From: Capsulimonas corticalis
GTDB taxonomy: Bacteria > Armatimonadota > Armatimonadia > Armatimonadales > Capsulimonadaceae
DNA length: 64,000 nucleotides
Assembly (NCBI RefSeq): GCF_003574315.2
Contig: NZ_AP025739.1
Coordinates: forward strand, 2,170,001 to 2,234,000
Reading direction: 5' to 3'
The position numbers were made by a program, and so were the translations under genes. A model generated the notes under the pieces. It saw only the letters and a list, made by a program, of their open reading frames with translations, did no database searches and had not been told where the DNA came from. This document shows, one piece after another, positions 36,836 to 56,700 of this stretch. How positions within the stretch are numbered: the first letter of the stretch is position 1; every line of letters starts with the position of its first letter.

Positions 36836-37070
36836 AAGTACCGATACGGTTCCCGTTCGGCGAACGGTTTCAAACGTGAACGTTTGCGATTGTCGCGTTA
36901 CGTGAGATTTTCCATATTCTCCGCGCCGGAACGCGCCCGGCAAGGGGATGAGGGAGAAAAAATATGATATGATAACAGTCGAGCATCTGATTTTCGGCGC
37001 GATGTGCAAGGAACGCCGGAGTGGACAGATGCTCCCTCTGACAACCATCGCTCTCAGTCCTGGAGGACAT

Positions 37071-40000
37071 ATGTCGAAATCAAGACTTGCACTTTTGCTG
37101 GCGACGCTTGCCGTCGCCGCCCCCTCCTCGCCCGTCCATGCCGACGGCGCGGGACCTTCGCTTTATTCCATCACGGACCTTGGCGCCTTCTCCGCAAACA
37201 CGGTGAGCGTCGGCCTCGGTTTAAACTCGTCCGGCCAGGTCGCCGGTTATTCCCTCCAGCAGGGAGGATATCCGGTCGTCAAGCATTCCACGTTCTGGAG
37301 CCACGGCTCAGCCATTCTGCTTCCGACACTGGCGGGCCCCAGCGTCACCGGGTCGGAACTCGAGAGCGCCAACGCCGTCAGCAGTAGCGGCTGGGTCGTT
37401 GGCAGATCGGTAACCTCCAACGGCTCCCTGCACGCCTATCTCTGGACCTCGGCGAACGGCATTCAGGATCTTGGAGTCTTTCCGCAAGGGCGGTCGAGCA
37501 GCGCTTCCGGAATCAACGCCAGCGGCGCCGTCGTCGGCAGCGCGGATATTTACGGTCTGGACCACGCGTTTCTCTGGATCTCGGGCAACGGCTTGCAGGA
37601 CCTGGGCACATTTGGCGGCCAGTCCAGCTACGCCGCCGCGATCAACGCGACCAACCAGGTGGTCGGCGTCGCCGATACCTCCAACCAATATCAGCACGCC
37701 TTTTTGTGGAGCAGCGCTCACGGGCTTCAGGACCTGGGCGTGGAGCCGGGCGACTATGTCAGCTCCGCGTCGGCGATCAACGACTCCGGCGCGGTCGTCG
37801 GCAGCTCCGGGAGCGGCCAGTGGTGGCACGCCTTCCTGTGGGACTCCGCGCACGGCATGCAGGACCTGGGAACTCTGGGCGGCACATTCACCTTTGGATA
37901 TGGCGTCAACGCGAGCGGCCAGGCCGTCGGCTCCTCGCTGCCCGCCGGCAATATCGGCGCCTACAATGCGTTTGTGTGGGACGCCGCCCATGGCATGCGC
38001 GACCTCAACACGCTCATTCCGCCTTCGGAGTGGCATCTGACGCAGGCGAACGCGATCAACGCCAGTGGACAGATCACCGGCGTCGGAAGCATCAACGGAG
38101 CCACGCACGCCTTTCTGCTCACCCCTGCGCCGCCTCTCTCGCTGACGCTGACGCCCTCGACGGTGGTCAACGGCGCCAGCTCCACCGCCACGGTTTCGCT
38201 CAACGCCTACGCGACCACGGGGCCAAACCCCTTCGACGGCGGGGCAATCGAACCGGGCGTGTTCGTGCAGGTCGCCAGCAGTAAACCCGCCGCCATTCTC
38301 AGCGGCAATGTCTTCCTTGCCCCCGACGGCAAGACGTATGTTTACATTCCGCAGGGACAGTGGCAGGCGACCTTCACGATCTATACCAGCGTTGTCACGG
38401 CGAACACCACCGCGACGATCACGGCGTCATTCCCCGGAGGCTCGCGCACCGCGAATCTGACCATTACTCCGACGCCGATCCAATCGCTGACGCTCAGCCC
38501 GGCCTCGATTGTGAATGGCGGCCAATCGACGGGAACGGTCACACTGGTGGCGCCGGCGTACATTGGCCTCGATCCCAACGGCAATGTGCAGCCAGGCGCG
38601 TTTGTGAAATTGACGACTTCCAGCCCGGTGGCGAGCTTTGGCGGCGGCGCGTTTACTCTCGGGCCAAACCTCGCTTATGTCTATATCCCGCAGGGAAGCA
38701 CACAGGCGACGTTCACCGTTAATACGGGATATGCGGCGGCTTCGACGACCGCGAAGATCACGGCGGCGTTCGGGTCCTCATCGATGAGCGTAAATCTGGC
38801 CATCGCGTCCACGCTCGTGCAGTCGGTCACGCTCAGCCCGGCCTCCGTCGTGAACGGCGGCTCCTCGACCGGAACGGTGACACTCGCCTCTCCGGCGTTT
38901 CTGGGACCTGACCCCAATGGCGACATCGGTCCGGGCGTTTTCGTGAAGCTGACGACCTCCAGCCCGGCTGCGAGCTTTGGCGGCGGCGCGTTCACTCTTG
39001 GGCAAAATCGCAGCTACGTCTATATCCCGCAGGGAAGCACGCAGGCGACATTCACCGTCAACGCCGGGCTTGTGGCCGCATCGACGACCGCGAAGATCAC
39101 CGCGGCGAACGGCGCATCGGCCAAGACCGCGAACCTGACGATTACGCCGACGCTGGTACAGTCGATCGTGCTCAGTCCGACCTCGGTCCTCAATGGCGGT
39201 CAGGCGAACGCCACCATCACACTGGCGACGCCCGCGTTTCTGGGACCAGACCTGGGCGGCAATATCGGTTCGGGCGTTTTTGTAAAGCTCACCAGCGCCG
39301 CTTCCGCCGCGACATTCGGCGGCAATGTGATCAACAATCCCGGCGGAGCCTCCTACGTCTACATCCCGCAGGGGCAAACCCAGGCGACATTTACCATCAA
39401 TGCCGGCTGGGTTCCGGCGGCCAAGGCGGCGACCATCACGGCGTCTCTCAACACATCCTCGAAATCCGCGACGCTGACGATCAATCCGACGCTGGTGCAA
39501 TCGGTCGTCGTCAGCCCGACATCGGTCGTGAACGGCGACCAGTCCATGGGAACCGTAACACTGGCGATGCCCGCGTTTATGGGGCCCGATCTCGGCGGCA
39601 TTGTCGGCCCAGGCGTCTTTGTGAAGCTGACGACTTCCGCTTCCGCCGCGACATTTGGCGGCGGCGCATTCGCCCAGGGACCGAACAGCGCCTATGTCTA
39701 TATTCCGCAGGGAAGCACGCAGGCGACGTTCACCGTCAACGCCGGGTTTGTGGCCGCGTCAACTACGGCGACTATCTCCGCATCTCTGAGTAATTCCGTG
39801 AAGACGGCGAGTCTGAAGATCACGCCGACGCTCGTGCAGTCCATTGTACTGAGCCCGACGACAATCGCCGGCGGCGCTCAGACGAGCGCCACCGTGACAC
39901 TGGCCTCGCCGGCGTTCATCGGCGCCGATCTAGACGGTAATCTCAATCCCGGCGTGTACGTGAAGCTCGACAGCTCCAATATGGCGGCCTCCTTCGGCGG

Positions 40001-40169
40001 CAATGCGTTCGTCGCCTCCAACGGCAACGCCTATGTCTATATTCCGCAGGGAAGTACGCAGGCGACATTCCTCGTCGGGGCCTCCCCCGTGCCCGCCAAG
40101 ACCACGTCCGCCATCACGGCGTCGCTCAACGGCGCCGCCCACAGCGCGACCTTGACGATCACCCCGTAG
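37071..40169 (+). CDS. Secreted HAF-repeat and six-fold Ig-like repeat protein
   Basis: A 1032-residue exported protein starting MSKSRLALLLATLAVAAPSSPVHADG; GGAGG at 37062-37066 confirms ATG 37071. Residues about 30-360 carry HAF-type extracellular repeats (DLGxF...INASGAVVG...HAFLW), likely a beta propeller. Then come six tandem Ig-like repeats of about 108 residues, each opening SLTLSPASIVNGGQS-like, passing PGAFVKLTTSS, and closing YVYIPQGSTQATFTVN. No C-terminal sorting motif or TM is seen. The role is unknown, perhaps adhesion or surface-layer display. It ends in a strong terminator. Confidence 0.78.
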   Translation: MSKSRLALLLATLAVAAPSSPVHADGAGPSLYSITDLGAFSANTVSVGLGLNSSGQVAGYSLQQGGYPVVKHSTFWSHGSAILLPTLAGPSVTGSELESANAVSSSGWVVGRSVTSNGSLHAYLWTSANGIQDLGVFPQGRSSSASGINASGAVVGSADIYGLDHAFLWISGNGLQDLGTFGGQSSYAAAINATNQVVGVADTSNQYQHAFLWSSAHGLQDLGVEPGDYVSSASAINDSGAVVGSSGSGQWWHAFLWDSAHGMQDLGTLGGTFTFGYGVNASGQAVGSSLPAGNIGAYNAFVWDAAHGMRDLNTLIPPSEWHLTQANAINASGQITGVGSINGATHAFLLTPAPPLSLTLTPSTVVNGASSTATVSLNAYATTGPNPFDGGAIEPGVFVQVASSKPAAILSGNVFLAPDGKTYVYIPQGQWQATFTIYTSVVTANTTATITASFPGGSRTANLTITPTPIQSLTLSPASIVNGGQSTGTVTLVAPAYIGLDPNGNVQPGAFVKLTTSSPVASFGGGAFTLGPNLAYVYIPQGSTQATFTVNTGYAAASTTAKITAAFGSSSMSVNLAIASTLVQSVTLSPASVVNGGSSTGTVTLASPAFLGPDPNGDIGPGVFVKLTTSSPAASFGGGAFTLGQNRSYVYIPQGSTQATFTVNAGLVAASTTAKITAANGASAKTANLTITPTLVQSIVLSPTSVLNGGQANATITLATPAFLGPDLGGNIGSGVFVKLTSAASAATFGGNVINNPGGASYVYIPQGQTQATFTINAGWVPAAKAATITASLNTSSKSATLTINPTLVQSVVVSPTSVVNGDQSMGTVTLAMPAFMGPDLGGIVGPGVFVKLTTSASAATFGGGAFAQGPNSAYVYIPQGSTQATFTVNAGFVAASTTATISASLSNSVKTASLKITPTLVQSIVLSPTTIAGGAQTSATVTLASPAFIGADLDGNLNPGVYVKLDSSNMAASFGGNAFVASNGNAYVYIPQGSTQATFLVGASPVPAKTTSAITASLNGAAHSATLTITP

Positions 40170-40264: not shown

Positions 40265-43200
40265 CTACATCTCTTTCAAGATCGCTTGGCGGCGCGTTTC
40301 GTATTCGTCTTGCGTGATGAACCCCTCGTCGAGAAGCTCTTTCGTTTCCAGAAGGCGCTCCTTTAGCGTGGCGCGCGCCGGGGCGGGGGCGGCGACGGGA
40401 GCTGGTTCGGGCGCCGCGCTGGGCAGGACGGCGGGGACGGCGGAGACTGTGGCTGGGATTGCCGTCGGCTGGCCGCCGCCGGCGTAGTTGATCTCTTCCA
40501 GGTAGTCCGTGAGGACCTTGTAGTATGGATCGTAGAAGTTGGGCGCGAGGCCCATCTTTTGATTGTTGGCGTGCTGGACGAGGCGAGCGCCGAGGGCGGC
40601 GGCGCCTTCGCTGCGCAGGCGTTCGTCGATTGCGGCGTTGATCTGGGCCTGCATCCGGCGGTCGTCGCAGAGGCGCTGGACGAGATCGCGGGCTTCGGCG
40701 GGCGGGCGGCCCGGCGCGGAGCCGGCGTCGGTCTTGAAGCCGGCGACGACGGATTCGACGCTGTTGAAGCCGCCGAGCGAGTCGCTTTTGGGCATGCCGA
40801 ACTTGTCCGTGTAGTTCGCGACGAAGCTGACGATGTCGCGGGTGCCGACGCTGGTGTAGCGCGATTCATGCTCTTCGTCGATTACGCCGGACGCCCAGCC
40901 GATCACGAATGTCCGCCACGCCGATTTCTGGTCCTCGGCCGACGGCGGCGAGATTCGGATCCAGTCCTTGATATCCGTGCGCGTGTGGATCGGGTTCGCC
41001 GCCGCGCCCAGGGACTTGACCTGATCGTAGGCGTACCGGTAAGACTCCATGCCTTGCAGCAGGCGCAGCGGGAAGGCGGCGCGCTCGCGTAAGAACAAGA
41101 CTTGGTGCGGTTCGTTGGAGTTCGAGATCTGCTGATCTTTGACGCCCTGGACCGTGTCCATGATCATCGTGCGGAACCGCTGCTCGCTTTCGGTGCGCGG
41201 CGCCGCGCCGTGCAGGACGCCGATGATGGTCTGCTCTTTGTTGATGTTGTGCGTGTAGTTCGGCGCATTCTCCTGAAGGTGCAGGAACGGCGTGGACAGG
41301 CTGCCGACGCGGCGCAGGGTTTGGATGGTGCGGTCCGTGTCGTGGCCGTATTTGCTGTAGAACTTGTCCAGCACGCTTTCTTCTTCCACAGGCTTGAAGA
41401 CCGCGCGCGTGTGCGAAAGGATCGTCCCCGCGATGCGTGGCAGCTCGCCGTCGCGCACGCCCCAGATATCCGCCTTGGTCCCCAGGGTCTCCAGAATGTC
41501 GGAGATCAGGTTATTCACGGTGGCGTTGTTGGTGTCCATCGCGTTGCCGACGTAGTGTCCGTAGCGGTCGTCGATATCGCCGCCGACATAGCGATCCGCG
41601 CCTGTCACCGGGTCGGTGTCGCGGCGGCCGGGGTTGAACAGCACCTCGCCGTTGACGTCCACCGGCTCCTGCACGGCTTCGCGCTCGGCGCGCGCAAAGC
41701 CGGCGCGCAGCGATTCGATCCGCTCGACATAGCGGTCCATCTCGGATTTCAGACTCGCCACGGTCGCCAGCAGGTGACGGTAGAAGACCAGCGCCGCCTC
41801 GCCGCCCCGGATATCCACCATCTCGGCGTCATACCGGCGGGCGGCGGCCAGGAAGTTGTCTTTCTCCCCATCGATCTCGCTGCGCTTGGCCTTCGCGATC
41901 AGGCTGAGCATAATGTCTCCGGCGTACCGGTTGATCTTCTGGAGGGCGGCGTCGCGTGTCTGGATCGTCGGCTGGAGGCCGTTCTTGCGTTCTTCCTGTG
42001 TCCGCTCCAGTTGCGTCATATACGTGCGGAACCGATCGGCCATCGTGTCCAGAGCCGCCGCCGCGACGCCGTGGCGATGGTTAGGATCGTTCACCTGCGC
42101 GCTCACCCAGTCACGCAGCGCTTTATCCTTGGCTTTGATGCCCGTACCCAGGTTCTGCTGAATCTGGAACACGGATTCGCCGAGGTTGGTCTTGCGCTTG
42201 GAGAGCAGGTCGGGATTGGGATCGGTGTCGATGACGCGCGCGTCGGATTCTTTCTGGCGCGCGACGAGATATTCAACCACCCGGTTGTGTCCCGGGTAGG
42301 AGGTCTCATACTGGCGATTCGCGCCGTTCCAGTAAGCCATCGACATATCGCGCAGCGTCTCGCCCGATTCCGAGTTGGCCGTCGTCACCAATCGCTCCAC
42401 GGCGTCGGTCGTCAGGCCCAGACGCGCCAGCTCCTGGTCCGTGAACGCGCCGATATTGACCACGCGCTCCAGCGGCTCGGTCCAGCGGCGCACGATATCG
42501 CCCGCCAATCGATTGGAGCAGGCCGTCATGACCTTGTCCTTGGGGAAGTAGATCGACGCCAGTCCGAAGCCCATATAGTTTTGGGCGCAGCCCAGGCCGT
42601 CCGAGGTAATCAAGAACTGGTCGAAGTTATTGCGATTCGACTTCTTCTGGCGCTGGAATTCGGAGGTCAGATCGAGGAAGATCGAGTGCCCGATCATCTC
42701 CACCAGATCCTTGACCGAGTCCAATTGCGCCGACGGCGAGGACGTATCCACCAGATAGGTGTACCGGAACGGCGGGTCGGCGTCCTCCATCGGCGGGATC
42801 TCCGCCTGATACTGGGCCGAGAAGGTCGTCGATGGGTCCGTGAAATGGTTCAGCTCCATCAGGGCCGCGTAGGCGTTGGGCCGGTTGTCCACCGCGACGG
42901 CCTCGGAGTTGGGCGGAATGCTGAACATCCCGACCATCTCCAGCATGCGCTGCGATTTGAACTTATTCCGCACCGTGTAGGCGAGATCCAGGAACATGCC
43001 CGATCCCGTGCCGCCGAGCATCGAGCCGACGATATAGACCGTCAGGCCTTCGCCCACTTGCAGGCCGTTGCGGATCGCCGTTTCCTTGCTGGAGTCGCGC
43101 GTCACCTTCAGCATCTCTTCTTCGAGCTTGCGCGCGATGGTCGCGTAGTTCCAGAAGTACGCAAGACGTCCGCGCGCGCGCACCGCGCCGGCGCCCTGAT

Positions 43201-43636
43201 CGATATCGCCGGTCAGCACGCGGGCGTCGAGCCAGGTGCGCAGATGGGGATGCTCGCGCAGGTTCTTGCGCAGATTGTCCACGCCATGCACGGACGTATG
43301 GATCTTATCGGCGTTGTCCAGATTGACGGCGTCGTCATAATCCGGGTTCTTGGAGAAGATCGCCTGGTCCGTGTCGAGAAGCATAAACCCGACGATCGGG
43401 ACCTTATCGAGCGACTCATACTTCTCGATCAGCCGCTTGCGGACATCCAGCAAAATCTGATGCCCCGTGCCGCCGACGCCGATAATAATCGACCGCGAAA
43501 TTCCCCGAAGCCGGCCATCGTCGGCTGTCGGCCCCGTGGTGGAAGCGGCTCCCGCCGGCGCCGAAATCGTCGGCGCGGGGGCCGGAGCGGGCGCGGGCTG
43601 AATAGGAAGAACAGGTGGAGTGATATTGTCTGCCAT
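40265..43636 (-). CDS. Large tubulin/FtsZ-like GTPase with SHOCT-like C-terminus
   Basis: A 1123-residue cytoplasmic protein. A Pro/Ala-rich leader (1-45) precedes a tubulin-superfamily fold: IIIGVGGTGHQILLDVRKRL (51-70) as first nucleotide loop, VGFMLLDTDQAIFS, then the tubulin signature loop VGSMLGGTGSGMFLDLAY (203-220, GGTGSG at 208-213) and FSIPPNSEA. The remaining 800 residues are helical, far longer than FtsZ, as in the tubulin-like family of large bacterial proteins. The last 33 residues (LKERLLETKELLDEGFITQDEYE...) match a SHOCT oligomerisation motif. It is the last gene of a five-gene operon with membrane vWA, Ig and coiled-coil proteins, suggesting a GTP-driven scaffold attached to a membrane complex. 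Confidence 0.88.
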   Translation of the reverse strand: MADNITPPVLPIQPAPAPAPAPTISAPAGAASTTGPTADDGRLRGISRSIIIGVGGTGHQILLDVRKRLIEKYESLDKVPIVGFMLLDTDQAIFSKNPDYDDAVNLDNADKIHTSVHGVDNLRKNLREHPHLRTWLDARVLTGDIDQGAGAVRARGRLAYFWNYATIARKLEEEMLKVTRDSSKETAIRNGLQVGEGLTVYIVGSMLGGTGSGMFLDLAYTVRNKFKSQRMLEMVGMFSIPPNSEAVAVDNRPNAYAALMELNHFTDPSTTFSAQYQAEIPPMEDADPPFRYTYLVDTSSPSAQLDSVKDLVEMIGHSIFLDLTSEFQRQKKSNRNNFDQFLITSDGLGCAQNYMGFGLASIYFPKDKVMTACSNRLAGDIVRRWTEPLERVVNIGAFTDQELARLGLTTDAVERLVTTANSESGETLRDMSMAYWNGANRQYETSYPGHNRVVEYLVARQKESDARVIDTDPNPDLLSKRKTNLGESVFQIQQNLGTGIKAKDKALRDWVSAQVNDPNHRHGVAAAALDTMADRFRTYMTQLERTQEERKNGLQPTIQTRDAALQKINRYAGDIMLSLIAKAKRSEIDGEKDNFLAAARRYDAEMVDIRGGEAALVFYRHLLATVASLKSEMDRYVERIESLRAGFARAEREAVQEPVDVNGEVLFNPGRRDTDPVTGADRYVGGDIDDRYGHYVGNAMDTNNATVNNLISDILETLGTKADIWGVRDGELPRIAGTILSHTRAVFKPVEEESVLDKFYSKYGHDTDRTIQTLRRVGSLSTPFLHLQENAPNYTHNINKEQTIIGVLHGAAPRTESEQRFRTMIMDTVQGVKDQQISNSNEPHQVLFLRERAAFPLRLLQGMESYRYAYDQVKSLGAAANPIHTRTDIKDWIRISPPSAEDQKSAWRTFVIGWASGVIDEEHESRYTSVGTRDIVSFVANYTDKFGMPKSDSLGGFNSVESVVAGFKTDAGSAPGRPPAEARDLVQRLCDDRRMQAQINAAIDERLRSEGAAALGARLVQHANNQKMGLAPNFYDPYYKVLTDYLEEINYAGGGQPTAIPATVSAVPAVLPSAAPEPAPVAAPAPARATLKERLLETKELLDEGFITQDEYETRRQAILKEM

Positions 43637-43699
43637 AGGTGTTATTCTTGAGTGAAGATCGGATTATTCGGACTTACTGTTTGTCGAAGGTAGTCTTGG

Positions 43700-44566
43700 T
43701 CACTGTCCCAGTCTTTGTACGTTCGAGGGAGATTCGAGCGGTGTAATGATAGACCGGACTTCCTCGCGGGCGTTCAGCGCGGCGTTGACTTCGGCGGAGA
43801 TTTGCTGGATGTTCGCCGAAAGCAGCGCGAAGTCTCCGCTTTCGTTCTGGTCGCTGAGCGTATGGCTTTCCAGGCTGACCTGCATCGCTTGAATCTGTGT
43901 CAGCACTTCTCCGCGCGCCGCTTCGCGACGACGGCGGAGCGTGGTCCGCTGGCTGGCGAGGGCCGCGCTTCCGCGCAGGGTTTCCGCCTGACGCCGCAGG
44001 CTGGCGGCGACGACGGGGTCGGTTTCGAGACGCGCCTTTTCTTCTGTCTCGTTCGCCTGACGCTGAATCGCGTCGGCGCTGCTGGATCCGCCTAAGCCCG
44101 GGGCGATGGAGAGGTTCTCGACCAGATCTCCGATGCCGCGCAGGGCTTCATGAATGTTGCGTTGGGCGCTTGCGCTCAGACCCTGCGCTTCGATGACGGA
44201 GCGCAGCAGGATCCCATAATTCGCTTCCAGCGTATCCTGGCCGACGCCGATCGTGTCCGCCTCCTGCACAGTGATCGGGGCGTTGCTGTCGATGACGCGG
44301 GCGACGGCGCCTCGGCCGCGCATGAACGCGAGCGGCAGCAGAAAAAAGAGAAGCCAGCTCCACTGGAGCAGATCGTGTCCGCCGTGGAACGCAAACAGCC
44401 CCAGGAACATGAACGGGAAGAAGCGAAAGCCTCGTCGCTCTCGGCGTTTTCTATCCTTCTTTAAGAACTCAGGAACGGTGACATCTTCCCGCTGTTCCGC
44501 GCCGCTTCGCATCCGCAGGAGCTTATCCCGATGGGCGGCGTCCAGATCTTGTGGCCGAACTTCCAT
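43700..44566 (-). CDS. Two-TM coiled-coil protein of the tubulin-like operon
   Basis: A 288-residue protein with a basic N-terminus (LKKDRKRRERRGFR), two adjacent TM helices (about 47-62 and 66-82, FFPFMFLGLFAFHGGH / WSWLLFFLLPLAFMRGRG), and a long helical C-terminal region (90-288) with heptad-like Leu/Ala pattern (AIQRQANETEEKARLETDP, SLRRQAETLRGSAALASQ). Helical hairpin anchoring plus a cytoplasmic coiled coil suits a membrane tether for the tubulin-like protein, whose gene starts 63 bases downstream. No catalytic motif is seen. Function inferred from context. Confidence 0.6.
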   Translation of the reverse strand: MEVRPQDLDAAHRDKLLRMRSGAEQREDVTVPEFLKKDRKRRERRGFRFFPFMFLGLFAFHGGHDLLQWSWLLFFLLPLAFMRGRGAVARVIDSNAPITVQEADTIGVGQDTLEANYGILLRSVIEAQGLSASAQRNIHEALRGIGDLVENLSIAPGLGGSSSADAIQRQANETEEKARLETDPVVAASLRRQAETLRGSAALASQRTTLRRRREAARGEVLTQIQAMQVSLESHTLSDQNESGDFALLSANIQQISAEVNAALNAREEVRSIITPLESPSNVQRLGQ

Positions 44567-44605
44567 GGCGGATCTCAGAATCGCGGCTTTTGGGGGCGCG
44601 ATCTT

Positions 44606-45268
44606 CTACTTTCGCGTGAACAGCACGATCAATATCGCCAGCGCGACGATGCCTCCGAGCACCATCATCAGCGGGCCGTAGTTGGCAAAGAACAGATAGA
44701 AGAACAGGGCGTAGGACGCCAGGACGCCGACGAGCAGGGCGACACGCGAGGCGGCCGCAGGATCGCCGCGCTTGTTCGCGGCGCGGGCGCCGACATACAC
44801 GACGAACGGCAGGAAGATCAGCGCAATGGCGGTTCCCACCAAAAAGATGATCCATTTGGTGATGGGGTTCGACGACACGAATTCAAAATCATTGTTCACC
44901 GTCGCGGGGAACCGCACGCTGCCGCCGGTGCTCGACACCGCCTCAAAGTGATAGTGGTATGTGCCCGAATTGGCCGGAGTGTAACTCCAGGTGACCGGAA
45001 TGCCCGCCGTGGCGTCGCCGCTGGGAATGGCGGCCGGTACGATGACCTCGCCGCCGGGCGTCTCCAGCACCATCTTCAGCGTTGTCGGCGCGTCGCCTTC
45101 GGACTGAATGTAGGTCAAATTGGCGACATACGTGCGGCCCTGCTGCACCTCGGCGGGAATCGGCGGCGTGTTGGCCGATGACAGCGTCGGCGGCTTGGCG
45201 GATGCGGCGAAGGCCAGGGAAAACAGCAATGCGGCGATGCACGCAATTCGAGAGCAGACAAGTTTCAA
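44606..45268 (-). CDS. Exported Ig-like domain plus multi-TM protein of the tubulin-like operon
   Basis: About 220 residues. A signal peptide (LVCSRIACIAALLFSLAFAASA) precedes an extracytoplasmic Ig-like beta domain (about 30-130, GTYHYHFEAVSSTGG), then three TM helices (ITKWIIFLVGTAIALIFLPF, VALLVGVLASYALFFYLFF, LMMVLGGIVALAILIVLF) and a short basic end. The start is uncertain: no ATG lies close to the signal peptide; a TTG at 45268 lies 10 bases after AGGAGG. The upstream ATG at 45349 would add 27 unlikely residues. It sits between the vWA gene and the coiled-coil gene, so it is probably a structural part of the same membrane complex. Confidence 0.6.
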   Translation of the reverse strand: MKLVCSRIACIAALLFSLAFAASAKPPTLSSANTPPIPAEVQQGRTYVANLTYIQSEGDAPTTLKMVLETPGGEVIVPAAIPSGDATAGIPVTWSYTPANSGTYHYHFEAVSSTGGSVRFPATVNNDFEFVSSNPITKWIIFLVGTAIALIFLPFVVYVGARAANKRGDPAAASRVALLVGVLASYALFFYLFFANYGPLMMVLGGIVALAILIVLFTRK

Positions 45269-45393
45269 AGAGACACGGCCTCCTGTGCCGACGAATTGGC
45301 GGACGCCTCGCAAAACAGCTTTGCAGGCCCGCCAATTATTGTGACACATAACATGGGAATTGGTTGCAGCGCGTTTCGCGGAGCGCCTTGCCG

Positions 45394-46590
45394 CTAGAAC
45401 GACGCTTCTTTGGGGTCGGCCACGCGCACCCGATGCTCGCGCTCGGGCGACGTTTCCGTCGCCGCCGTCACCAGCCGGATTTCATCGCCGGTCCGCACGG
45501 CCGTGGGGCCTTCCAGGCGGGCGCCATTATGGTAGACCTTGACTGTGTCGCTTCCCTTCACGGCGGGGATTAGCGTCAGGCCACCCTTCGCTTCGATGGC
45601 GGCGGCGGGCGCGGCAACTCCCGCCAGCGGAAATGTCTCGTCGCCCGGTCCCCCCGCGCCGATCGACCCGCCAAGCTGCACCCGGGATCCGGGGCGCAAT
45701 TGGAAGTCGACCGGGCGGCCCTTGTCGCCCAGCTTCAGCCGCAGCGGCTGCGGCCGGCGCAGCGCCGACATCGCCGCGAACGCGAGGATCGCCAGCAGCG
45801 CGACCGCGCCGCCGATGATCGCCGGCAGATTGCTCTGCGGCTTTTCGGGAGTCGAAGGCGTCAGCGTCGTCGGCGCCGTCGATTGATCGTCGCCGGCGTT
45901 ATCGTCCTGCCCCGGACCGACGGGAAGCCGTTCGATTGGCCGGCCGCTGGTGGCGATGCCGACGCCGACGCCATACTCCGTCAGTTTGTCCGAGGATTTC
46001 AGCGTGCGCAGCAGCCGTTCGTAATCGCGATTTTCCGAACTGCTCGGATAAACCGTCAGCCCCTTGAGCGTGTAGTAATTCAAATACGCCGGATAGTTCG
46101 GGTCGCTCTCCAGAGGCCGGTCGTTAAACGAATCGGTCAGGAGAACGACCACGCCGGGGTTTGGAAGATCCTGTTCGATCGCTTTGAGCGCCTCATGGTG
46201 CGGCTCGCGAATATTGGTTCCCGCCCCGGGCGTAACAGCCGACGGGATCTGATCGGTCAGCGCCGCCGCATCGGCGGCGTCGGTGATTGTCTTGTCGAAC
46301 ACCGTCTGCGTGCCCGTCCCGAAGCTTTTGAGGATCACATGGTCGCCGGGATCGCATCCCTGGCGAAGCAAGGTCGCGGTCGCCGCGCGCTCGCGTCCAA
46401 AGACGCCGCCGTGCCGTGTGCTGCCCGAAACATCAAAGACAAACACCACCGTCTTAGGATGGATCGCCTTGATCTGCGCCGCAAACTGCGGCAGAGACGC
46501 CTGAGACGGCGCATCCTGCGCGCATGCGGCGATGGGCAGAGCGCAGAGGGCGGCGAAAAGGGCAATATTGAGTTTTGTTCGCGATGTCAC
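45394..46590 (-). CDS. Exported von Willebrand A protein with TM and FHA-like C-terminal domain
   Basis: A 398-residue protein starting at GTG (46590). A signal peptide (1-24) leads to an extracytoplasmic vWA domain (about 45-215) with intact MIDAS residues: DVSGS (53-57), Thr in GAGTNIREP (about 125), and Asp in LLTDSFND (about 153). A linker, TM helix (255-277), and cytoplasmic beta-rich region (280-398; VDFQLRPGSRVQLGG, VKVYHNGARLEGPTAVRTGDE) follow, resembling an FHA fold without its standard phospho-threonine residues being certain. A palindromic repeat ends seven bases before the start codon, and its GAGGG may act as ribosome site. FHA-like plus a kinase-like gene next door suggests a phospho-dependent or degenerate signalling pair. 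Confidence 0.78.
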   Translation of the reverse strand: MTSRTKLNIALFAALCALPIAACAQDAPSQASLPQFAAQIKAIHPKTVVFVFDVSGSTRHGGVFGRERAATATLLRQGCDPGDHVILKSFGTGTQTVFDKTITDAADAAALTDQIPSAVTPGAGTNIREPHHEALKAIEQDLPNPGVVVLLTDSFNDRPLESDPNYPAYLNYYTLKGLTVYPSSSENRDYERLLRTLKSSDKLTEYGVGVGIATSGRPIERLPVGPGQDDNAGDDQSTAPTTLTPSTPEKPQSNLPAIIGGAVALLAILAFAAMSALRRPQPLRLKLGDKGRPVDFQLRPGSRVQLGGSIGAGGPGDETFPLAGVAAPAAAIEAKGGLTLIPAVKGSDTVKVYHNGARLEGPTAVRTGDEIRLVTAATETSPEREHRVRVADPKEASF

Positions 46591-46597
46591 GGAAAGA

Positions 46598-46744
46598 GGC
46601 CCTCACCCCCCCGGCCCCCTCTCCCAATTTTGGGAGAGGGGGAGCAAGAGTGTTTTTGTGCTTTTGGATCTTTGATCCTAAAATCCTAATCTTAACCTTC
46701 TCCCAGAATTGGGAGAGGGTGGCGCGGAGCGCCGGGTGAGGGCC
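46598..46744. repeat. Palindromic intergenic repeat element, copy 2 (147 bp)
   Basis: Terminal inverted repeats GGCCCTCACCC (46598-46608) and GGGTGAGGGCC (46734-46744) enclose two CTCCC..GGGAG hairpins (one is CTCTCCCAATTTTGGGAGAG at 46619-46638) and a central TTGGATC-TTT-GATCCTAA. It matches the element at 17401-17568 in order and orientation. It fills nearly the whole gap between the pseudokinase and vWA genes and may affect cotranscription. Confidence 0.78.
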
Positions 46745-46755
46745 ATTCCGCCCTC

Positions 46756-48414
46756 CTAATGCAGCAGCGCCACGCACGCCCCGACAATCCCGATCACCCC
46801 CGCGATCAGCGCCGGCGCGCAGCCGGTGGCGCTGGGGACCTGGCCGGCGGGGATGTCCTTCACCACGCGGACGCGGACGTCGCAGCGCATTTCGCGCCAG
46901 ACCATGCGGCTCCCCATCTCCGTCTTCTCTTCCACGCTGTTGACGAACGTGATGACTGCTTTATAATCTCCCGCCGTCAGCGAGGTGGCCGAGACCGAGA
47001 AGCCGAGAAACTGAGTGGCGCCGGGTTCGATCCAGAGCGGCTGAAACTCGCCGGGATAGGTCAGCCAGGACGGCGATGCGGCGACTTTGTCGATTCGAAT
47101 GCGTTCCGAACCGATGTTTCGGACGCCGATATGCAGCACTCCCTTTTGTCCATACCGAACTAAGCCCGGGTCCGGTTCCTGCGTGCAGGCGATCCCGTCG
47201 CCTTCGAGCGGCGCGCCGGGCGGCGCCGACGGCGGAGCAGGGGCGGCGTGCGGGAAGGGCGGCGGGGCGGCGTCCGGCGCTCCCTGGGTAGGCAGGCGCT
47301 CGGCGAGGGGCGGGGGCGATGCCGGGGCGGCGACGCCCTTGACGGCGACCGGGACCGCGACGGTCTGCTCGTGCCAGGGAGCGCCTGCGGGCGGCGTCAT
47401 CGTCTGCATGCCGCTGTTCGAGCGAATCTGGAGGTTCGCCCGGTAGTCGCCGGGCTGGAGACGGGCGCCCGAAAGGGTGAAGACGAGATCGATCTCGTCG
47501 TCCGGGGGCAGCACGAACGGGGTGAACCGCGTGTGGTAGTTGAGCCAGACGGCGTCCGACCCGACGGCTTCAACGTGTAGGGGCGTGTCGCCCTCGTTCC
47601 AGATCGTCAGCACGACGGACGTTCCAGCGCCCGCGTTGATCACCGCCGTCGTGGGCGTGACCATGCAGACGATCCGCGCGCCAAGCCGTCCCCGCTCTTC
47701 CTGAACGCCGCCCGCGCCGAAGCCGAGCAGGCCGGCCATGCGCGTGATTGCGTCGAGCTTGTAGCGCAGCTCTTCGGGAGTTGTGGTCGTCGCCTGCATC
47801 TCCGTCAGATTGCGCATCAGCCGCGTGCGCGCTTCGGCGCCGGCTTCGTCGTCGGGAGATCGCTCCGGGAGAAACTCTTTGTAAAGCTCGCAGAGGGCGT
47901 AGTAATCGGCGCGCGCCGTCGCCGCGCCGCCGGGTCCGAGCAGGGAGGGCGGGGCGTAGCGCGTGCCGGACGCGCCGCGACCGGCGCCGAAGTCCGTGAG
48001 ATAACTGGCGCCGTCGTCCGAGATCACGATGTTTTCCGGGGACAGCGCGCCGTGGGGAGCGCCCATGCGATGGGCGTAGTCGAGGGTGTCCAGAACCGGG
48101 TCCAGAAGGTCGCGCAGGCGGTCGAACGAGCGGTCCGCGCCATTCGCCAGGGTCGTGCGCAGGCTGCGGCCGGGAATCCAATCGCGGACCGTGTATAGCG
48201 CATCATCGTCGATCAGCCAGCGGCGCGCGGGCGCGATGCGGGGATGGCGCAGGCCCAGCGCCTGGGTCGCCCGTGTCTTGCCGAGGTCGCCCGAGCGGCG
48301 CTTGATCAGCACCTGGCGATCGCCGCCCGCTTCTCGCGCTCTCCAGCTGACGATTCCCGGACCGGCCGTGACGACTTCGGCGACGTCCTCAAACTGCGAG
48401 AGCACCCGATCCAT
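46756..48414 (-). CDS. Tail-anchored pseudokinase with Ig-like domains
   Basis: A 552-residue protein. Residues about 10-235 keep the protein-kinase fold: a Lys38 in VLIKRR, hinge-like VRDWIPGRSLRTTL, catalytic-loop position HGALSPENIVI (121-131) and DFG at 141-143. In place of HRDLKPEN the catalytic Asp is Ala123 and the Lys is Ser125, so phosphotransfer is unlikely. Two Ig/ASPM-like beta domains follow (about 250-365, 410-525), with a Pro/Ala-rich linker between, and a C-terminal TM helix (534-552). It is first in the tubulin-like operon. A role as binding or sensing scaffold, perhaps contacting the FHA-like tail of the vWA protein, is inferred. Confidence 0.75.
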   Translation of the reverse strand: MDRVLSQFEDVAEVVTAGPGIVSWRAREAGGDRQVLIKRRSGDLGKTRATQALGLRHPRIAPARRWLIDDDALYTVRDWIPGRSLRTTLANGADRSFDRLRDLLDPVLDTLDYAHRMGAPHGALSPENIVISDDGASYLTDFGAGRGASGTRYAPPSLLGPGGAATARADYYALCELYKEFLPERSPDDEAGAEARTRLMRNLTEMQATTTTPEELRYKLDAITRMAGLLGFGAGGVQEERGRLGARIVCMVTPTTAVINAGAGTSVVLTIWNEGDTPLHVEAVGSDAVWLNYHTRFTPFVLPPDDEIDLVFTLSGARLQPGDYRANLQIRSNSGMQTMTPPAGAPWHEQTVAVPVAVKGVAAPASPPPLAERLPTQGAPDAAPPPFPHAAPAPPSAPPGAPLEGDGIACTQEPDPGLVRYGQKGVLHIGVRNIGSERIRIDKVAASPSWLTYPGEFQPLWIEPGATQFLGFSVSATSLTAGDYKAVITFVNSVEEKTEMGSRMVWREMRCDVRVRVVKDIPAGQVPSATGCAPALIAGVIGIVGACVALLH

Positions 48415-48551: not shown

Positions 48552-51500
48552 ATGATAAAACCGCGGATTCGCCGATGCACTACCCTCGCACCTCTTGGCA
48601 TCCTGGCGTTTGCCGCATTCGCGCTGCCCGCCGCGCGAGTCGACGCGGCGGGGTCTCCCGATCTTGTGTGGATGCGGCCGGGCGCAAAACACGTGGGCGA
48701 TGTCGCGGTTTCGCCGGACGGTAAACTCCTCGCCCTCGTGACTGGCGACGCCGCTTCCCCAAACATCAAGCTGATCCGGCGCGCCGACGGCGTGTTTCTG
48801 CACATGATCCGCCTGAGCTATCCCGCCCTCGCCGTCACGTTTTCACCGGACTCGCATACCCTGGCCGTACGCTGCCATGTCGCGGATTTCCAGACCGACA
48901 CGCCTTCCTATTATCTGTTTCGTGTTTCGGATGGAGGGCTGATCCGCGCGTTTCCCGCGCTCGGCCTGGAATCGGCGAATCCGCTGCGCGACGACCGGAT
49001 TACGTTCACTCCAGACGGGAAACAGCTCGTCACGGATGAACTGTCGTTCGACCAGAGCGTGGTGGCGACGAGCATTTACAACGTACTGGACGGTTCGCTT
49101 CAGCCTCCGGCCATCGCGGGCTATGCGCCGGGATCGCTGGCCGCCGATCTGGGCGGCAATCTCCTGAGCGGGGCCCAATCGACCCTGGCGCCCGACGGCA
49201 GCCTGCGCTTTAGTTTTCTTTCCGATGGAACGGCCGCCTTGTGGAGCCCCGCGAACGGCGCGTATCTCGGCTCTGGGAGCTTTCAGGTCTCGGGAGGCCC
49301 CTGGACCAATCCCGTTTATTTGAGCCCGCAGCTTGTGGCGTTCGGTGGCCCGCAGGGCCTCTCCACCCTGTCGCTCGCCTCCCTCTCCGGCGGCGCGCCG
49401 CCCCACGTCCCGGTCGCGTTCGACGCTTTTATGAACGCCAAGGCGCTCTGGACATCACCGGATGCGAACCGCACGACGCTTCTGGCGCTTGGTTCGGTGG
49501 GCGGCTCTCCGGATGTGCTGCGAGTCTATCGGAAATTGCCCGGCGCATCCATTCCCGCCCCGCTCGATCTGGATATTTCCGCCTTTGAGCCGCTCGGCGG
49601 CGCCGCAATCACCCCCGAGGCGTCTTCTTATTTTGTCTCCGGCGTCGCCCTCGGCTTTCCGTGCGTCTTCGAAATCAACGCGCTGGGCGGGCCAGGAAAC
49701 TCCAGCCTCATCGAAAGAAGCCTGCTGGCGCACGCCGCGCGGGCGAACGGCGTCGCGTATTCCCCGGACGGGCAGATTGTCGTGACCGGCGGGGACGATG
49801 GCCGGTTATGCCTGTGGAGCGCGGCCGACGGTTCGCTCATTCGGACCGATGGAATTCATGAACCGATAGAAGCCGTGGCAATCTCGCCCAGCGGTCGATT
49901 TGTGGCTTATGCCGTCTCGGACAAAGTGGTGACGCTGGACCGCACCAATAACAGTTCGACCTATGTCTCCGTCACGGAGCCGTTCCGTCTCGCCTTTTCG
50001 CCCGATGGAGGCTATTTGGTCGCCGTGACGGGAGAACCGCAGGTCCGGGTCTGGTCCACGAGCCAATTGGCGACAGGTGGAATGCTACAATTCTATGCGG
50101 TCGGTGGATTTGGAACCGTTCAGGACGCCGTGTTTTCCCCGGATAGCGCGACAGTCGCCATCAAAAGCCTGAATCAGCTCTACTTCTGGACGATTGGCGG
50201 ATCCTATCCTGCGCCGATCGATCTGGGATCGAATGCGGCGAATGGATTTGGTCTCGCGTATTCGCCGGATGGAAGCCGGCTGGCGGTCGGCGGAGATCGA
50301 GATGTTTCCCTCGTCGATACGGCGGCCCATACGGTGGTGAAAACGCTGCACGATCCCGTGGCCTATGGGACCGCGTATGTCAGCAGTGTCGCCTACCGGC
50401 CGGACGGCGGCCTTCTGCTCTCGGCGCACGCCGACGGCGCGGTGCGCGCCTGGAATGCGGCTGCGGGAACGCTCCTCCAGACCTACTCGGAGGATACCGG
50501 TGTCCGCAATAGCTTTGGGCTGCTGGGGATCGCCGCCGCTCCGAACGGCTGCGATTTCGCTTATTGCTGGGACGACGGCTCGGTCAGTCTGGCGAACATG
50601 CCGGGACCGACGCCGCTGAAGGTTACGCTGGATACGTCCGCGACGGCCGCCAGCGCGACTTACAGCTCGGTCCTGTTCCACTGGACGACCAACCTGCCGG
50701 CGGACAGCCAGTCCGATATCGGCCTTTCCTTGCCGCCTTATGAAGCCGGAACGCCGCTCGACAGCGCGCGCGTGACCACGCACACGCAGACCATGACCGG
50801 TCTGATCCCTGCGACGACTTATCACTATCGAGTCCGGTCGACGGACGCGCGCGGCGTCACGCGCGACAGTGAGGATGCGACGTTCACCACACGCGCCGCG
50901 CCGACGCCGTCCCAGGTCGTCTTCCAGGTTCCGTCGGGCTACGGCGGCGTGGCGACCGTCGTGGGCGTCACCCTGACGACGCCTGCCGATGAGAACGGCG
51001 TTCAAGTGGCGATGTCCAGCTCGGACGCCCAGATGATTCCGGCGGGGACAAAGCTCACGATCCCTCCGGGCGCATCGGGCGCGTGGCTGAAGATCGTTCC
51101 GACCGCCGTCTCCGCGAACACGGTCGTGTCGGTCTCCGCCACGCTGAACGCGGTGACGAAAACCGCCACGCTGCCCATCAATCCGCCGCTGCTGACCGCC
51201 CTCTCCACGATCGCGTCCGTTGCCGGCGGTCAGCCGCTGGCGGTCAAGGCGACTCTGCAAGGCGCCGCGCCGGCGGGCGGCCTGATCGTGCCGGTGTCGA
51301 GTCCTTCTTCGGCCATTATCGGCGGCTCCATCACCATTCCCGCCGGCGCGACCAGCGGAACGACGACGCTCGCCACGCGCCTGGTGAACGCCAATACGCC
51401 GGTGACGCTGACGGCGACGTCCAATGGGACTTCGCGGACTGTAAGTGTGACCGTCCAGCCGACGATCCAGTCGATCGCGTTTGCCGCCGCCGGCGGCTAT

Positions 51501-52310
51501 GGCGGGGTGAGCACGAGCGTGGGGGTTTCTCTCTATGTGCCGGCGGGACCGAATGGGGTGACGATTGCGTTGTCGAGCCCTGGATCGACGCTGTTCCCGG
51601 CGGGAACGACCGTGACGATTCCGGCCGGCGCTTACGGCGCGTGGATCCGATGCACGCCTGCTCCCGTCGCGTCCGCCACCGTCATCACCGCGACGGCGAC
51701 CCTGGGATCCGTGAGCCGGAGCGCGACATACGCCGTGAACGCTCCCGCTCTGACAAGCTTCGTTCCCGCCAGTTCCGTTCTTGGCGGCCAGCCGCTGTCC
51801 GCGCGGGTGACCCTGACCAGCCCCGCGCCTGCGGGCGGCGCCCTGGTCAGCGTCACAAGCAATTCTCCGGCAATCACGGGGGGCGCCGTCACGGTTCCCG
51901 CCGGAGCGACCACGGCGACGGCTTTGCTCACCACGCACCCCGTCAGCGCCGCCGCTTCCGTGACATTGACGGCGGCCTGGAAATCCGTATCCCTCACGGG
52001 GAATGTCGCCGTTCAGCCGTCGTTCCAATCGATCGTCTTCGCCGCGGCTTCTGGTTATGGCGGGGCAAGCACGAGCCTCGGCGTCGCGCTCTACACGCCG
52101 GCGGGCCCGGGCGGGCTGACCGTAACGCTCTCCAGTTCGGATACAAAAATGATCCCGGCGGGAACCACTCTGACGATCCCCACCGGCTCCTACAGCGCCT
52201 GGATGCGCGTGACGCCCTCGGTTGTCGTGTCGGATACCGCGGTCACCGCCACGGCGGCGCTGGGATCGTTTACCAAGAGCGCGACCTACACAGTGAAAAA
52301 GAATCCGTAA
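48552..52310 (+). CDS. Secreted WD40-like propeller protein with A-B-A-B-A Ig-like cassette
   Basis: A 1252-residue exported protein; GAAGGAAATAGG precedes the ATG. After a signal peptide (about 1-33) there are many WD40-like units (VAVSPDGKLLALVTGD, VAYSPDGQIVVTGGDDGRL, LAYSPDGSRLAVGGDRDV; about 45-690), probably two propellers. A fibronectin III-like domain (about 695-790, TYHYRVRSTDARG) is next. Five Ig-like modules close the protein: type A (GYGGVSTSVGVSLY, SSSDxxxIPAGT) alternating with type B (GGQPLxVKATLxGxAPAGG). The same five-module cassette ends the two proteins at 53701 and 57436. It is divergent from the pseudokinase gene across 137 bases. Function unknown; a surface scaffold is likely. 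Confidence 0.78.
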   Translation: MIKPRIRRCTTLAPLGILAFAAFALPAARVDAAGSPDLVWMRPGAKHVGDVAVSPDGKLLALVTGDAASPNIKLIRRADGVFLHMIRLSYPALAVTFSPDSHTLAVRCHVADFQTDTPSYYLFRVSDGGLIRAFPALGLESANPLRDDRITFTPDGKQLVTDELSFDQSVVATSIYNVLDGSLQPPAIAGYAPGSLAADLGGNLLSGAQSTLAPDGSLRFSFLSDGTAALWSPANGAYLGSGSFQVSGGPWTNPVYLSPQLVAFGGPQGLSTLSLASLSGGAPPHVPVAFDAFMNAKALWTSPDANRTTLLALGSVGGSPDVLRVYRKLPGASIPAPLDLDISAFEPLGGAAITPEASSYFVSGVALGFPCVFEINALGGPGNSSLIERSLLAHAARANGVAYSPDGQIVVTGGDDGRLCLWSAADGSLIRTDGIHEPIEAVAISPSGRFVAYAVSDKVVTLDRTNNSSTYVSVTEPFRLAFSPDGGYLVAVTGEPQVRVWSTSQLATGGMLQFYAVGGFGTVQDAVFSPDSATVAIKSLNQLYFWTIGGSYPAPIDLGSNAANGFGLAYSPDGSRLAVGGDRDVSLVDTAAHTVVKTLHDPVAYGTAYVSSVAYRPDGGLLLSAHADGAVRAWNAAAGTLLQTYSEDTGVRNSFGLLGIAAAPNGCDFAYCWDDGSVSLANMPGPTPLKVTLDTSATAASATYSSVLFHWTTNLPADSQSDIGLSLPPYEAGTPLDSARVTTHTQTMTGLIPATTYHYRVRSTDARGVTRDSEDATFTTRAAPTPSQVVFQVPSGYGGVATVVGVTLTTPADENGVQVAMSSSDAQMIPAGTKLTIPPGASGAWLKIVPTAVSANTVVSVSATLNAVTKTATLPINPPLLTALSTIASVAGGQPLAVKATLQGAAPAGGLIVPVSSPSSAIIGGSITIPAGATSGTTTLATRLVNANTPVTLTATSNGTSRTVSVTVQPTIQSIAFAAAGGYGGVSTSVGVSLYVPAGPNGVTIALSSPGSTLFPAGTTVTIPAGAYGAWIRCTPAPVASATVITATATLGSVSRSATYAVNAPALTSFVPASSVLGGQPLSARVTLTSPAPAGGALVSVTSNSPAITGGAVTVPAGATTATALLTTHPVSAAASVTLTAAWKSVSLTGNVAVQPSFQSIVFAAASGYGGASTSLGVALYTPAGPGGLTVTLSSSDTKMIPAGTTLTIPTGSYSAWMRVTPSVVVSDTAVTATAALGSFTKSATYTVKKNP

Positions 52311-53700: not shown

Positions 53701-56700
53701 ATGGATCGACGACGACTTGCAGGTAGATTTTCCCAATTGGCGTTCGGCGCGGCCGCCGCGCTGGCGCTTGGCTCGGCTGCGTCTTTTGGCGCGCCCGTCA
53801 CGGTGTGGACGCAGCACAATGACAACTCTCGCACCGGCCAGAACACGCAGGAGTCGGTGCTCAATGTCTCCAACGTCAATAAGAGCACGTTTGGAAAGCT
53901 TTTCAGCTATCCAGTCGACGATCAAGTTTACGCGCAGCCGCTTTACGTGCCGGGGCTGACCATGCCCGTTGACGGCAAAACACATAATGTGGTCTTCGTG
54001 GCCACCGTCAACAACTCGCTCTACGCATTTGACGCCGATAACCCCGCCGCCGACGGCGGACAGCCGCTCTGGAGCGTCAATTTCACTCCGGGGAGCTGCC
54101 GCCCGCCGATCAAGAGTGATATTGCCGGCTGGTACAACGACTTTGACAACAACATGGGTATCGTCGGCACCCCCGTGATCGATACGGCCTCGGGAACGCT
54201 TTATGTCGTCTCCCGCTGGACGGACGGCAGCGTCTTCAACCAGGATCTGCACGCGATCGATATCCATACCGGCGAAGAGCGGGCGAACAGCCCGCAGTCG
54301 ATCGATGCGGAGTATGTCGCGGGCGCAGTCACGACTGGCTTTGACGCGCGCCTGCAGAACCAGCGCCCGGCGCTGCTGCTGCAAAACGGCGTCGTCTATA
54401 TCGCGTGGGCGTCCCATGGCGACACCAGTCCTTACCATGGCTGGATTATCGGCTACAAGGCGTCGGATCTGTCTCAGGTCGCGGTCTGGAACTCCTCGCC
54501 GACCGGCGATATGTCGTCAATCTGGCAGTCTGGACAGGGCCTCACGACAGACGCCGCCGGCAATATCTATTTCATGACCGGCAACGGCACGTTCGATGGA
54601 ACAACGAACTTCGGCGAAAGCGTGCTCAAGCTGACGCCGTCCACGTCCGGGGCTCTTACCTTTAAAGACTTCTTTGCTCCCTCCAACTGGGATACGCTGA
54701 ACGCGTGGGACGCTGATCTGGGTTCGGCGGGCATCCTGGGCATTCCCGGAACCAAGCTGATCCTCGGCGGCGGCAAGGAAGGCAAGCTCTACCTGCTGAA
54801 CACGGACAACCTGGGGAAGGTGAACAGTGTTGACAATGTCGTGCAGGAGTTTCAGGCGACCTCGCCGGCCGCCGGCCAGACCGGGCATATTCACGGGACG
54901 CCTGTCTATTGGCGCAATCCATCCGGTCAGTACATCTATGTTTGGGGCGAGAACGATTATCTGCGCCAGTATCAGTTCCTGAACGGCGTGGACGCCAACC
55001 ACGGCTCGTTCAACACCTCCGCCATCGCGCACAGTCCATTCCGGGCGCCGCTGTACAACGGCGGAATGCCGGGCGGCTTCCTTTCGATTTCGTCGAACGG
55101 AAACGCCGCCAATTCAGGCATCGTCTGGGCGGCTACGCCCTACGACGACAACGCCAACCAGCAGACGGTCGCGGGAGTTCTTTCGGCGTTCGACGCCTCG
55201 AATGTCTCGCATGTGCTCTGGACCAGCAAGGACTTCCCATCGCGCGACGACATCGGCCGGTTCGCCAAGTTCGTTCCGCCCACGGTCACCAACGGCAAAG
55301 TCTATGTCCCGAGCTGGGGCGACGGCAATGGCGGTCCCTGCCAGTTGTGCGTCTACGGCCTGCTGCCCACGCCCGTGGGTGGCGCGGGACTGCGCGTCGA
55401 TTACTACAACGATTCGCCGGACTCGTCTTACCCGCTGTCGGATCCGTTCAGCGGGACGCCGGTTCTGACCCGTGTCGATTCCACGGTGGACTTCAATTGG
55501 GGCGCTAACTCGCCGACCCCGATTGTTACCACCGATCATTTCTCGGCGCAATGGCGCGGCCGTGTTCTCGCGCCGACGACCGGCAATTACACCTTATACA
55601 CCAACACCGACGACGGCGTGCGCCTCTGGGTCGGCGGCCAGCTGATGATCGATCAGTGGAACGACCAGGGGGCGACCGAGTACGCTACCCCGGTCATTTC
55701 CATGGTCGCCGGGCAGAAGTACGATATCGAAATGGATTATTTCGAGGATGTCGGCGACGCCGTCGCGCAATTGTCCTGGTCCGGTCCGAACATCGCCAAG
55801 CAGATCATTCCGCAGTCGCAGCTGTTTCTCCCGGCGACGCTGAAGACGATCGGGTTCAATGCGGTCTCTGGACCCGGCGGCGTGGCGGTGGGGGTGGGCG
55901 TGGCGCTGACTGATACGGCAAGCGCCGGCGGGACTTACGTGGCGATGTCCAGCTCGGACACCAGCGCGATTCCCCCCAACACGCTTCTGAAGATCCCCGC
56001 CGGCGCGACCAGCGCCTGGCTGGCCGTGACTCCCAAGCCGGTTACGTCCGACACCCAGATCACCGCGACTGCCTATGACGGCTATACAAGTAAGAGCGCA
56101 AGCTTCCTCGTCACCGCGCTGGCGCTCAAAACGCTGACAACCGCCTCCGTGGTTGGCGGGGAAAACCTCTCCGTGACGGCGACTCTGCAAGGGAAGGCTC
56201 CCGCCGGCGGCGCCACGATCCCGGTGAAAAGCAGCTCTCCAGCGATTGCCGGCGGATCGATCGTCATTCCCGCCGGATCGTCCAGCGGAACGGTGTCGCT
56301 TACGACGAATGTTGTCAAGACCGACACTGCGGTAACGCTCAGCGGAACCTACGGTGGCGCGACGATCACGACAAACGTCACACTCCGGGCCTCGTTCCAG
56401 TCGTTCAGCTTCGCAGCCCCCAGCGGCTACGGCGGCGTTCCCACATCGCTTGGCATAGGGCTCTATGGCCCCGCCGCCGCGGGCGGCGTCACCATCAAGC
56501 TCGCCAGCCCGGGTTCGACCCTGATTCCTGCGGGGACAACGGTGACGATCCCCGCCGGTTCTTCGGGCATCTGGTATAAAGTGACCCCGGCTCCGGTCAA
56601 TACGGATACCGTGATTACCGCGACCGCAACTCTGGGAGCCTTAACTCGTCAAGCCTCCTATACCGTGAAGGCGGCGGTGCTGCACAGCATCACCGCCGGC

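Follow-up and report, generated by a model that had tools for sequence, protein, structure and literature searches.

FtsZl1 proteins form a tubulin-like family whose members are spread over many phyla of bacteria and also occur in some archaea. They correspond to Pfam Tubulin_2 (equivalence given in PMC9871819), and the tubulin-vWA-kinase system to which they belong has been known since 2010 from comparative genomics (Makarova and Koonin, 2010; PMC2875224). The proteins are about 1000–1200 residues long, with an N-terminal tubulin domain, a helical or coiled-coil centre and a helical C-terminus; their operons hold an upstream vWA gene, a kinase and membrane proteins, with a normal FtsZ alongside. 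Membrane remodelling was proposed for these systems in the same study, which did not confidently identify structural elements past H5, found no similarity to the tubulin C-terminal domain and left filament formation open. One of its reviewers suggested transport or signalling instead, and saw a problem in a cytoplasmic tubulin with periplasmic partners. Two questions date from then: does FtsZl1 polymerise into filaments, and what connects a tubulin in the cytoplasm with vWA proteins that are exported? Here we analyse a lineage-specific version of this system, a five-gene operon in a 64,000-nucleotide window (contig NZ_AP025739.1, positions 2,170,001 to 2,234,000) of the 7.65 Mb single-contig genome of Capsulimonas corticalis (Armatimonadota). 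All gene coordinates given below are window positions. The genes PK, VWA, IG, CC and TUB follow one another in this order on the minus strand. We judge the chances to be even that they encode one membrane-bound complex around the FtsZl1 (Tubulin_2) GTPase TUB, in which a scaffold of pseudokinase and FHA parts, working without phosphorylation, couples this GTPase to vWA and immunoglobulin-like (Ig) domains in the periplasm.

In contrast to the operons described in 2010, the kinase here is a pseudokinase that has Ig-like domains and a tail anchor, the vWA protein bears a transmembrane (TM) segment and an FHA-fold tail, Ig-like three-TM and two-TM helical partners are present, and OmpA and P-loop GTPase genes are absent from the operon. 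The present model also shows the tubulin C-terminal domain that could not be located then. Several other systems share parts of this inventory. GAP1-N2 GTPase-centric systems combine a tubulin and coiled coil with an extracellular vWA domain on a TM protein (Kaur et al., 2020; PMC7159879), whereas their DO-GTPase, GAP1 and FNIII components are absent from our operon according to Pfam (one scanned neighbour has a weak fn3 match). The type VIIb secretion pairs YukC/EssB and YukB/EssC likewise comprise a membrane pseudokinase and FHA domains without a phosphothreonine site, but here there is no ATPase or WXG100 protein, and the FHA domain sits on the vWA protein. In ArnA–ArnB of Sulfolobus, FHA and vWA domains belong to a single regulatory module, though on separate proteins that form a phosphorylation-dependent pair, and with no tubulin. 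CetZ and canonical tubulin, the closest solved fold to TUB, are small and lack its inserted arm.

A connection with cell aggregation is possible: a 2025 paper describes a methanogen operon, up-regulated on disturbance, in which vWA genes stand together with a tubulin-like gene that is annotated as CetZ and may or may not belong to FtsZl1. In the literature searched, we found no experimental study of FtsZl1/Tubulin_2 proteins and no account of a split but complete tubulin fold or of a degenerate kinase/FHA pair. Nor did we find later work joining vWA, pseudokinase, FHA and tubulin, although most subscription journals lay beyond the search and a paper may have been missed.

Results

TUB (40265..43636, minus strand) is a 1123-residue protein that matches PF13809 Tubulin_2 over residues 50–382 (E 1.5e-69, 235.4 bits, cut-off 27); its match to Pfam Tubulin itself is weak. 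An earlier note, made from the DNA letters and translations only, had linked TUB to a published tubulin-like family with vWA partners, and the match to PF13809 bears this out. It had also read a GGTGSG loop, which agrees with the GGTG[ST]G pattern of the tubulin T4 loop; this loop (residues 208–213; 42998..43015, minus strand) is unchanged across 53 of 53 relatives. A further conserved family pattern, E-x3-FPL...Y...H, falls at residues 851–884, within or beside the second half of the C-terminal domain. Neither TUB nor CC matched an NCBIfam model and IG had no convincing match there, and a profile search of the PDB with Tubulin_2 found coiled-coil look-alikes only and no solved relative.

Structures were predicted for TUB and VWA; the other fold statements rest on sequence. 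The AlphaFold2 model of TUB, built from an alignment of the 53 relatives from many phyla, had a mean predicted local distance difference test score (pLDDT) of 85.5 and a predicted template modelling score of 0.71. Its best Foldseek matches were tubulins (E 7.6e-6). VIA-align superposed it on CetZ (3zid) with Z 25.0 and a root-mean-square deviation (r.m.s.d.) of 3.7 over 303 of 342 residues, model residues 46–880 against chain residues 1–346, and aligned about 320–360 residues with tubulins; the CetZ and tubulin matches end at model residues 875–908. The tubulin fold that had been expected in about residues 45–400 is thereby upheld, beginning at residue 46. The GTPase domain and the following helices of the tubulin core occupy residues 46–386 (42479..43501, minus strand). 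Because so few CetZ residues remain unaligned, the match must take in most of the CetZ C-terminal domain, and the model thus holds both tubulin domains; since model residues 487–656 (41669..42178, minus strand) form long helices (487–516, 521–573 and 581–656), the C-terminal one must be split by a long helical arm. We infer S7 at 354–363, H9 at 366–386, an insert at about 387–795, S8 at 801–808, H10 at 816–828, S9/S10 at 837–855 and H11 at 863–875, which would place the remaining half of the C-terminal domain (beta-alpha-beta-beta-alpha) at residues 801–880 (40997..41236, minus strand). Beyond this extended helical middle, predicted helices at 980–1048 make up a helical C-terminus, and residues 1099–1120 (40277..40342, minus strand) form a SHOCT-like helix pair. 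The earlier SHOCT call is visible as a match to PF09851 (E 8.3e-5), but its 22.6 bits lie under the cut-off of 27. A tubulin fold as complete as the modelled one makes filament formation plausible.

We also considered TUB as the division FtsZ. This was ruled out because a separate, single canonical FtsZ adjoins FtsA in the genome and FtsZ is found in all 19 genomes of the order (Armatimonadales).

VWA (45394..46590, minus strand; 398 residues) consists of a signal segment, a vWA domain, a TM segment at 255–273 and a beta-rich tail, a plan that supports the proposed topology with the vWA domain outside and the FHA-like tail inside. The vWA domain (residues 46–200; 45991..46455, minus strand) matches PF13519 VWA_2 (32.9 bits, cut-off 27), and its model superposes on the vWA domain of CLCA1 (Z 15.2, 141 residues aligned, r.m.s.d. 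2.8). The metal-ion-dependent adhesion site (MIDAS) recognised previously is intact: D53, S57, T125 and D153 are unchanged in the first four orthologues, and across 23 sequences of several phyla D53, S57 and D153 are invariant and T125 nearly so.

The cytoplasmic tail of VWA (residues 281–391; 45418..45750, minus strand) was modelled as a beta-sandwich, with pLDDT mostly about 90 or higher. Its Foldseek matches include the FHA structures of KIF1A (4egx), KIF13A (5djo) and RNF8 (2csw), with E values of 4e-5 to 1e-4, as well as Rad53. By sequence, the Pfam scan gave no FHA family for the window tail and one hit among ten tails (E 0.0043), and a tail profile against PDB sequences gave nothing convincing. 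Pfam FHA does recognise, at 27.9 bits (cut-off 20.7), a relative from Poribacteria that shares the vWA-TM-tail architecture, and the tails of cyanobacterial vWA partners can be aligned to that of VWA. In the 13 orthologues from the order, Gly stands in place of the phosphothreonine-binding Arg (GG for GR), SxxH is absent and Asn-Gly is mostly kept. The model and alignment thus point to an FHA fold, as had been suspected, with a degenerate phosphothreonine site.

PK (46756..48414, minus strand; 552 residues) carries a kinase domain, two Ig-like domains and a C-terminal tail anchor. It matches PF00069 Pkinase with 37.5 bits (cut-off 31.7). The kinase region (about residues 1–205; 47800..48414, minus strand) has VLIK and DFG and lacks the HRD aspartate; at that position all 13 orthologues examined carry Gly, Ala or Ser (HG[GAS]). 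The DFG Asp is retained in all 13, and the beta3 position is Lys in ten and Arg in three. With the active-kinase set (beta3 Lys, HRD Asp, DFG Asp) incomplete, PK is predicted to be a pseudokinase by the criterion of PMC12599244. By hydropathy, its sole TM segment lies at residues 526–544 (46783..46839, minus strand), and there is no signal segment; both halves of the original call, pseudokinase and tail anchor, therefore hold. Because the Ig-like domains lie between a signal-less N-terminal kinase and a C-terminal anchor, and because orthologues in six genomes consist of kinase and Ig domains without any TM segment, these domains are predicted to be cytoplasmic. The notion that all Ig domains of the operon are extracytoplasmic is ruled out by this topology: of the vWA and Ig sensors imagined outside the membrane, the vWA domain and the beta domain of IG are still predicted there, but the Ig domains of PK are not. 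Two genomes from a different family encode, immediately upstream of VWA, a TM protein made of Ig domains of the HYDIN/ASH type, like those of PK. In planctomycete relatives (our loci L098, L099, L102 and L108) Tubulin_2 is fused to an N-terminal kinase in which HLDxKPQN and DFG are retained, and the kinase partner looks active in planctomycetes and dead in Armatimonadota.

IG (44606..45349, minus strand; 247 residues) combines a signal segment and a beta or Ig-like domain with three TM segments that have a positive loop; its orthologues in the order keep this pattern. It is matched in 16 of the 21 genomes searched, 15 of them inside the order. A protein bearing an IG-type three-TM module stands beside VWA-TUB in a different family of Armatimonadota, and a weaker case is seen in one Blastocatellia genome. 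CC (43700..44566, minus strand; 288 residues) is a predicted two-TM hairpin with a helical cytoplasmic part and an N-terminal PQDL motif, and has homologues in 15 of the 21 genomes. It evolves fast (about 60% identity within the genus, against 94% for TUB) and is multi-copy in some genomes. Neither of its two TM segments reaches the strict hydropathy threshold in the window copy; in the closest orthologue both of them pass it. No profile confirmed the Ig call for IG or the coiled-coil call for CC.

TUB is present in 17 of the 19 order genomes, and its identity tracks that of FtsZ across the order (Spearman rho 0.86), which suggests vertical inheritance. VWA and IG accompany it in 15 of the 17, and VWA, IG and CC are absent from both TUB-negative genomes; VWA, IG and CC thus co-occur with TUB across the order even when encoded elsewhere. 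Four genomes keep all five genes together at a single locus: the window genome, G001, G006 and G014, the last of which has additional copies of IG and CC. Six others (G002, G004, G011, G012, G015 and G018) have a PK-VWA-IG(-CC) block that lacks TUB, and three (G007, G008 and G010) a VWA-IG-CC block. In genomes with a TUB-less block, TUB is found on a different contig, frequently accompanied by a CC of its own, though contig breaks limit the reading of fragmented genomes; in G007 (98% complete, about 20 contigs) TUB, PK and VWA-IG are at three separate places. Among 53 loci of many phyla, a vWA gene lies at most three genes upstream of TUB in 32, compared with none of 281 genes further away; in the window operon it is three genes upstream.

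Further arrangements were seen at distant loci. In a Clostridia locus (L130, 7446-16233), a vWA gene is followed by a tandem run of three tubulin-like genes (796, 984 and 1126 residues), and in Alteribacter (L113, 19251-20747) a Csm6-like (HEPN) gene comes after a tubulin and two large membrane proteins, a hint that some Bacillota FtsZl1 loci adjoin defence genes. In another Armatimonadota family, an HSP70-like gene (L044, 12015-13541) lies several genes upstream of an Ig-VWA-TUB locus; HSP70 and tubulin also come together in DO-GTPase systems (Kaur et al., 2020; PMC7159879).

The five open reading frames (ORFs) lie where the earlier note had placed them and have gene-like codon-position bias. 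The gaps measure 165 nt (PK-VWA), 44 nt (VWA-IG), 39 nt (IG-CC) and 63 nt (CC-TUB). The operon is bordered by a divergent WD40-repeat gene (48552-52310, plus strand) and a convergent HAF-repeat gene (36948-40169, plus strand). Pfam/NCBIfam scans of neighbours identified the WD40 gene (with the weak fn3 match), the HAF-repeat gene, nei and a quinone oxidoreductase. The flanking ORFs at 36948-40169, 48552-52310, 53701-57237 and 57436-60969 are very large, with HAF repeats and WD40 plus fibronectin-like repeats; those at 53701 and 57436 both match a single gene directly downstream of TUB in G006 and G002. The PK-VWA gap contains a pair of 24-nt palindromes, CCCTCTCCCAAAATTGGGAGAGGG (46609..46727, strand not assigned), which are not part of the proposed machine and recur as a pair at 17438-17540. 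Genome-wide, with up to three mismatches, this sequence has 155 forward and 135 reverse matches against 0 for a reversed control, and the palindromes are a REP-like (repetitive extragenic palindromic) family.

Discussion

We infer the physical complex, its filaments, the direction of signalling and its cellular task as follows. Cytoplasmic TUB would bind GTP and, given both tubulin domains, probably stack into protofilaments from which the long helical arm projects. It would be tethered at the inner membrane by the two-TM protein CC and the tail-anchored PK, and VWA and IG would expose, on the outer side of that membrane, an adhesion-type domain dependent on metal ions and a beta domain, respectively. 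Because phosphothreonine-binding and catalytic residues are lacking, the FHA-fold tail of VWA most likely pairs with PK without phosphorylation, by analogy with type VIIb secretion, where YukC (EssB) pairs with FHA domains of YukB (EssC); the YukC pseudokinase co-purified with YukB FHA domains (PMC9600267), and PMC11217815 gives a further precedent for pseudokinase-FHA pairing. An envelope ligand or mechanical state on the vWA/Ig side would then control where or whether TUB assembles, and this assembly would shape or reinforce the envelope.

Several points weigh against this model. Both structural matches, of TUB and of VWA, depend on predicted models; the split of the TUB C-terminal domain was assigned from the order of elements and not from residue-level tool output. 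The T7-loop catalytic residues show no clear conservation (D346 is found in 30 of the 53 relatives). TUB is unlinked from the PK-VWA-IG-CC block in most of the order, VWA and IG were not found in the fragmented genomes G016 and G017, where TUB is present, and the co-occurrence test includes just two TUB-negative genomes, so that its Fisher p of about 0.035 (our own arithmetic) is supportive but not overwhelming. The REP pair between PK and VWA may also reduce co-transcription. The proposal of the earlier note that the five genes form one functional unit in a conserved neighbourhood is accordingly favoured by co-occurrence and conserved order, but linkage is looser than it implied.

The weak conservation of the T7 residues also fits a TUB that does not polymerise but acts as a GTP switch or scaffold, its nucleotide state recruiting partners to the vWA receptor and its arm serving as a binding platform. 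This option was named by the 2010 authors (PMC2875224), and the large insertion inside the C-terminal domain could block filament contacts; yet the two-domain tubulin fold is complete in the model, and every characterised member of the superfamily forms filaments, as the same paper states. We consider such a switch possible but rather unlikely. A conflict (anti-invader) function has a parallel in the GAP1-N2 systems, which also have a tubulin with a coiled coil and a membrane vWA protein (PMC7159879), and PK distantly matches defence kinases in PADLOC. These PK matches are, however, generic kinase ones, PADLOC gives no match for VWA, IG, CC or TUB, and the Pfam scan, which covered the five proteins and some neighbours, detected neither a DO-GTPase nor GAP1 nor an effector. 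TUB is also near-universal in the order and follows FtsZ divergence, unlike a patchy defence island, which makes a conflict system improbable. Least probable of these alternatives is a secretion or envelope-transport apparatus built from type VIIb-like pseudokinase/FHA parts, with TUB as a cytoplasmic assembly factor. Its appeal is that a pseudokinase-TM and an FHA-TM protein resemble EssB and EssC, and transport was suggested by the reviewer of the 2010 paper (PMC2875224), but by Pfam the operon encodes neither an ATPase of the FtsK/EssC type nor a WXG100 substrate nor a channel protein, and EssC ATPase and WXG100 are also absent among the scanned neighbours.

A membrane-bound complex around TUB would bear on the question raised by that reviewer, since a TM-linked vWA-FHA protein offers an answer, for this lineage, to the objection that the tubulin is cytoplasmic and its partners periplasmic. 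More tentatively, and with considerable doubt, the system may link an adhesion receptor that spans the membrane to a filament of the tubulin family, with periplasmic vWA/Ig domains controlling a split-domain, long-armed tubulin through a phosphorylation-independent pseudokinase-FHA adaptor. Such an arrangement would parallel integrin-cytoskeleton coupling and might be general to vWA-FtsZl1 systems across bacteria. For the FtsZl1 family, the predicted complete tubulin fold and the vWA-TM-FHA/pseudokinase bridge together provide a concrete physical model that would be testable with a few purified pieces.

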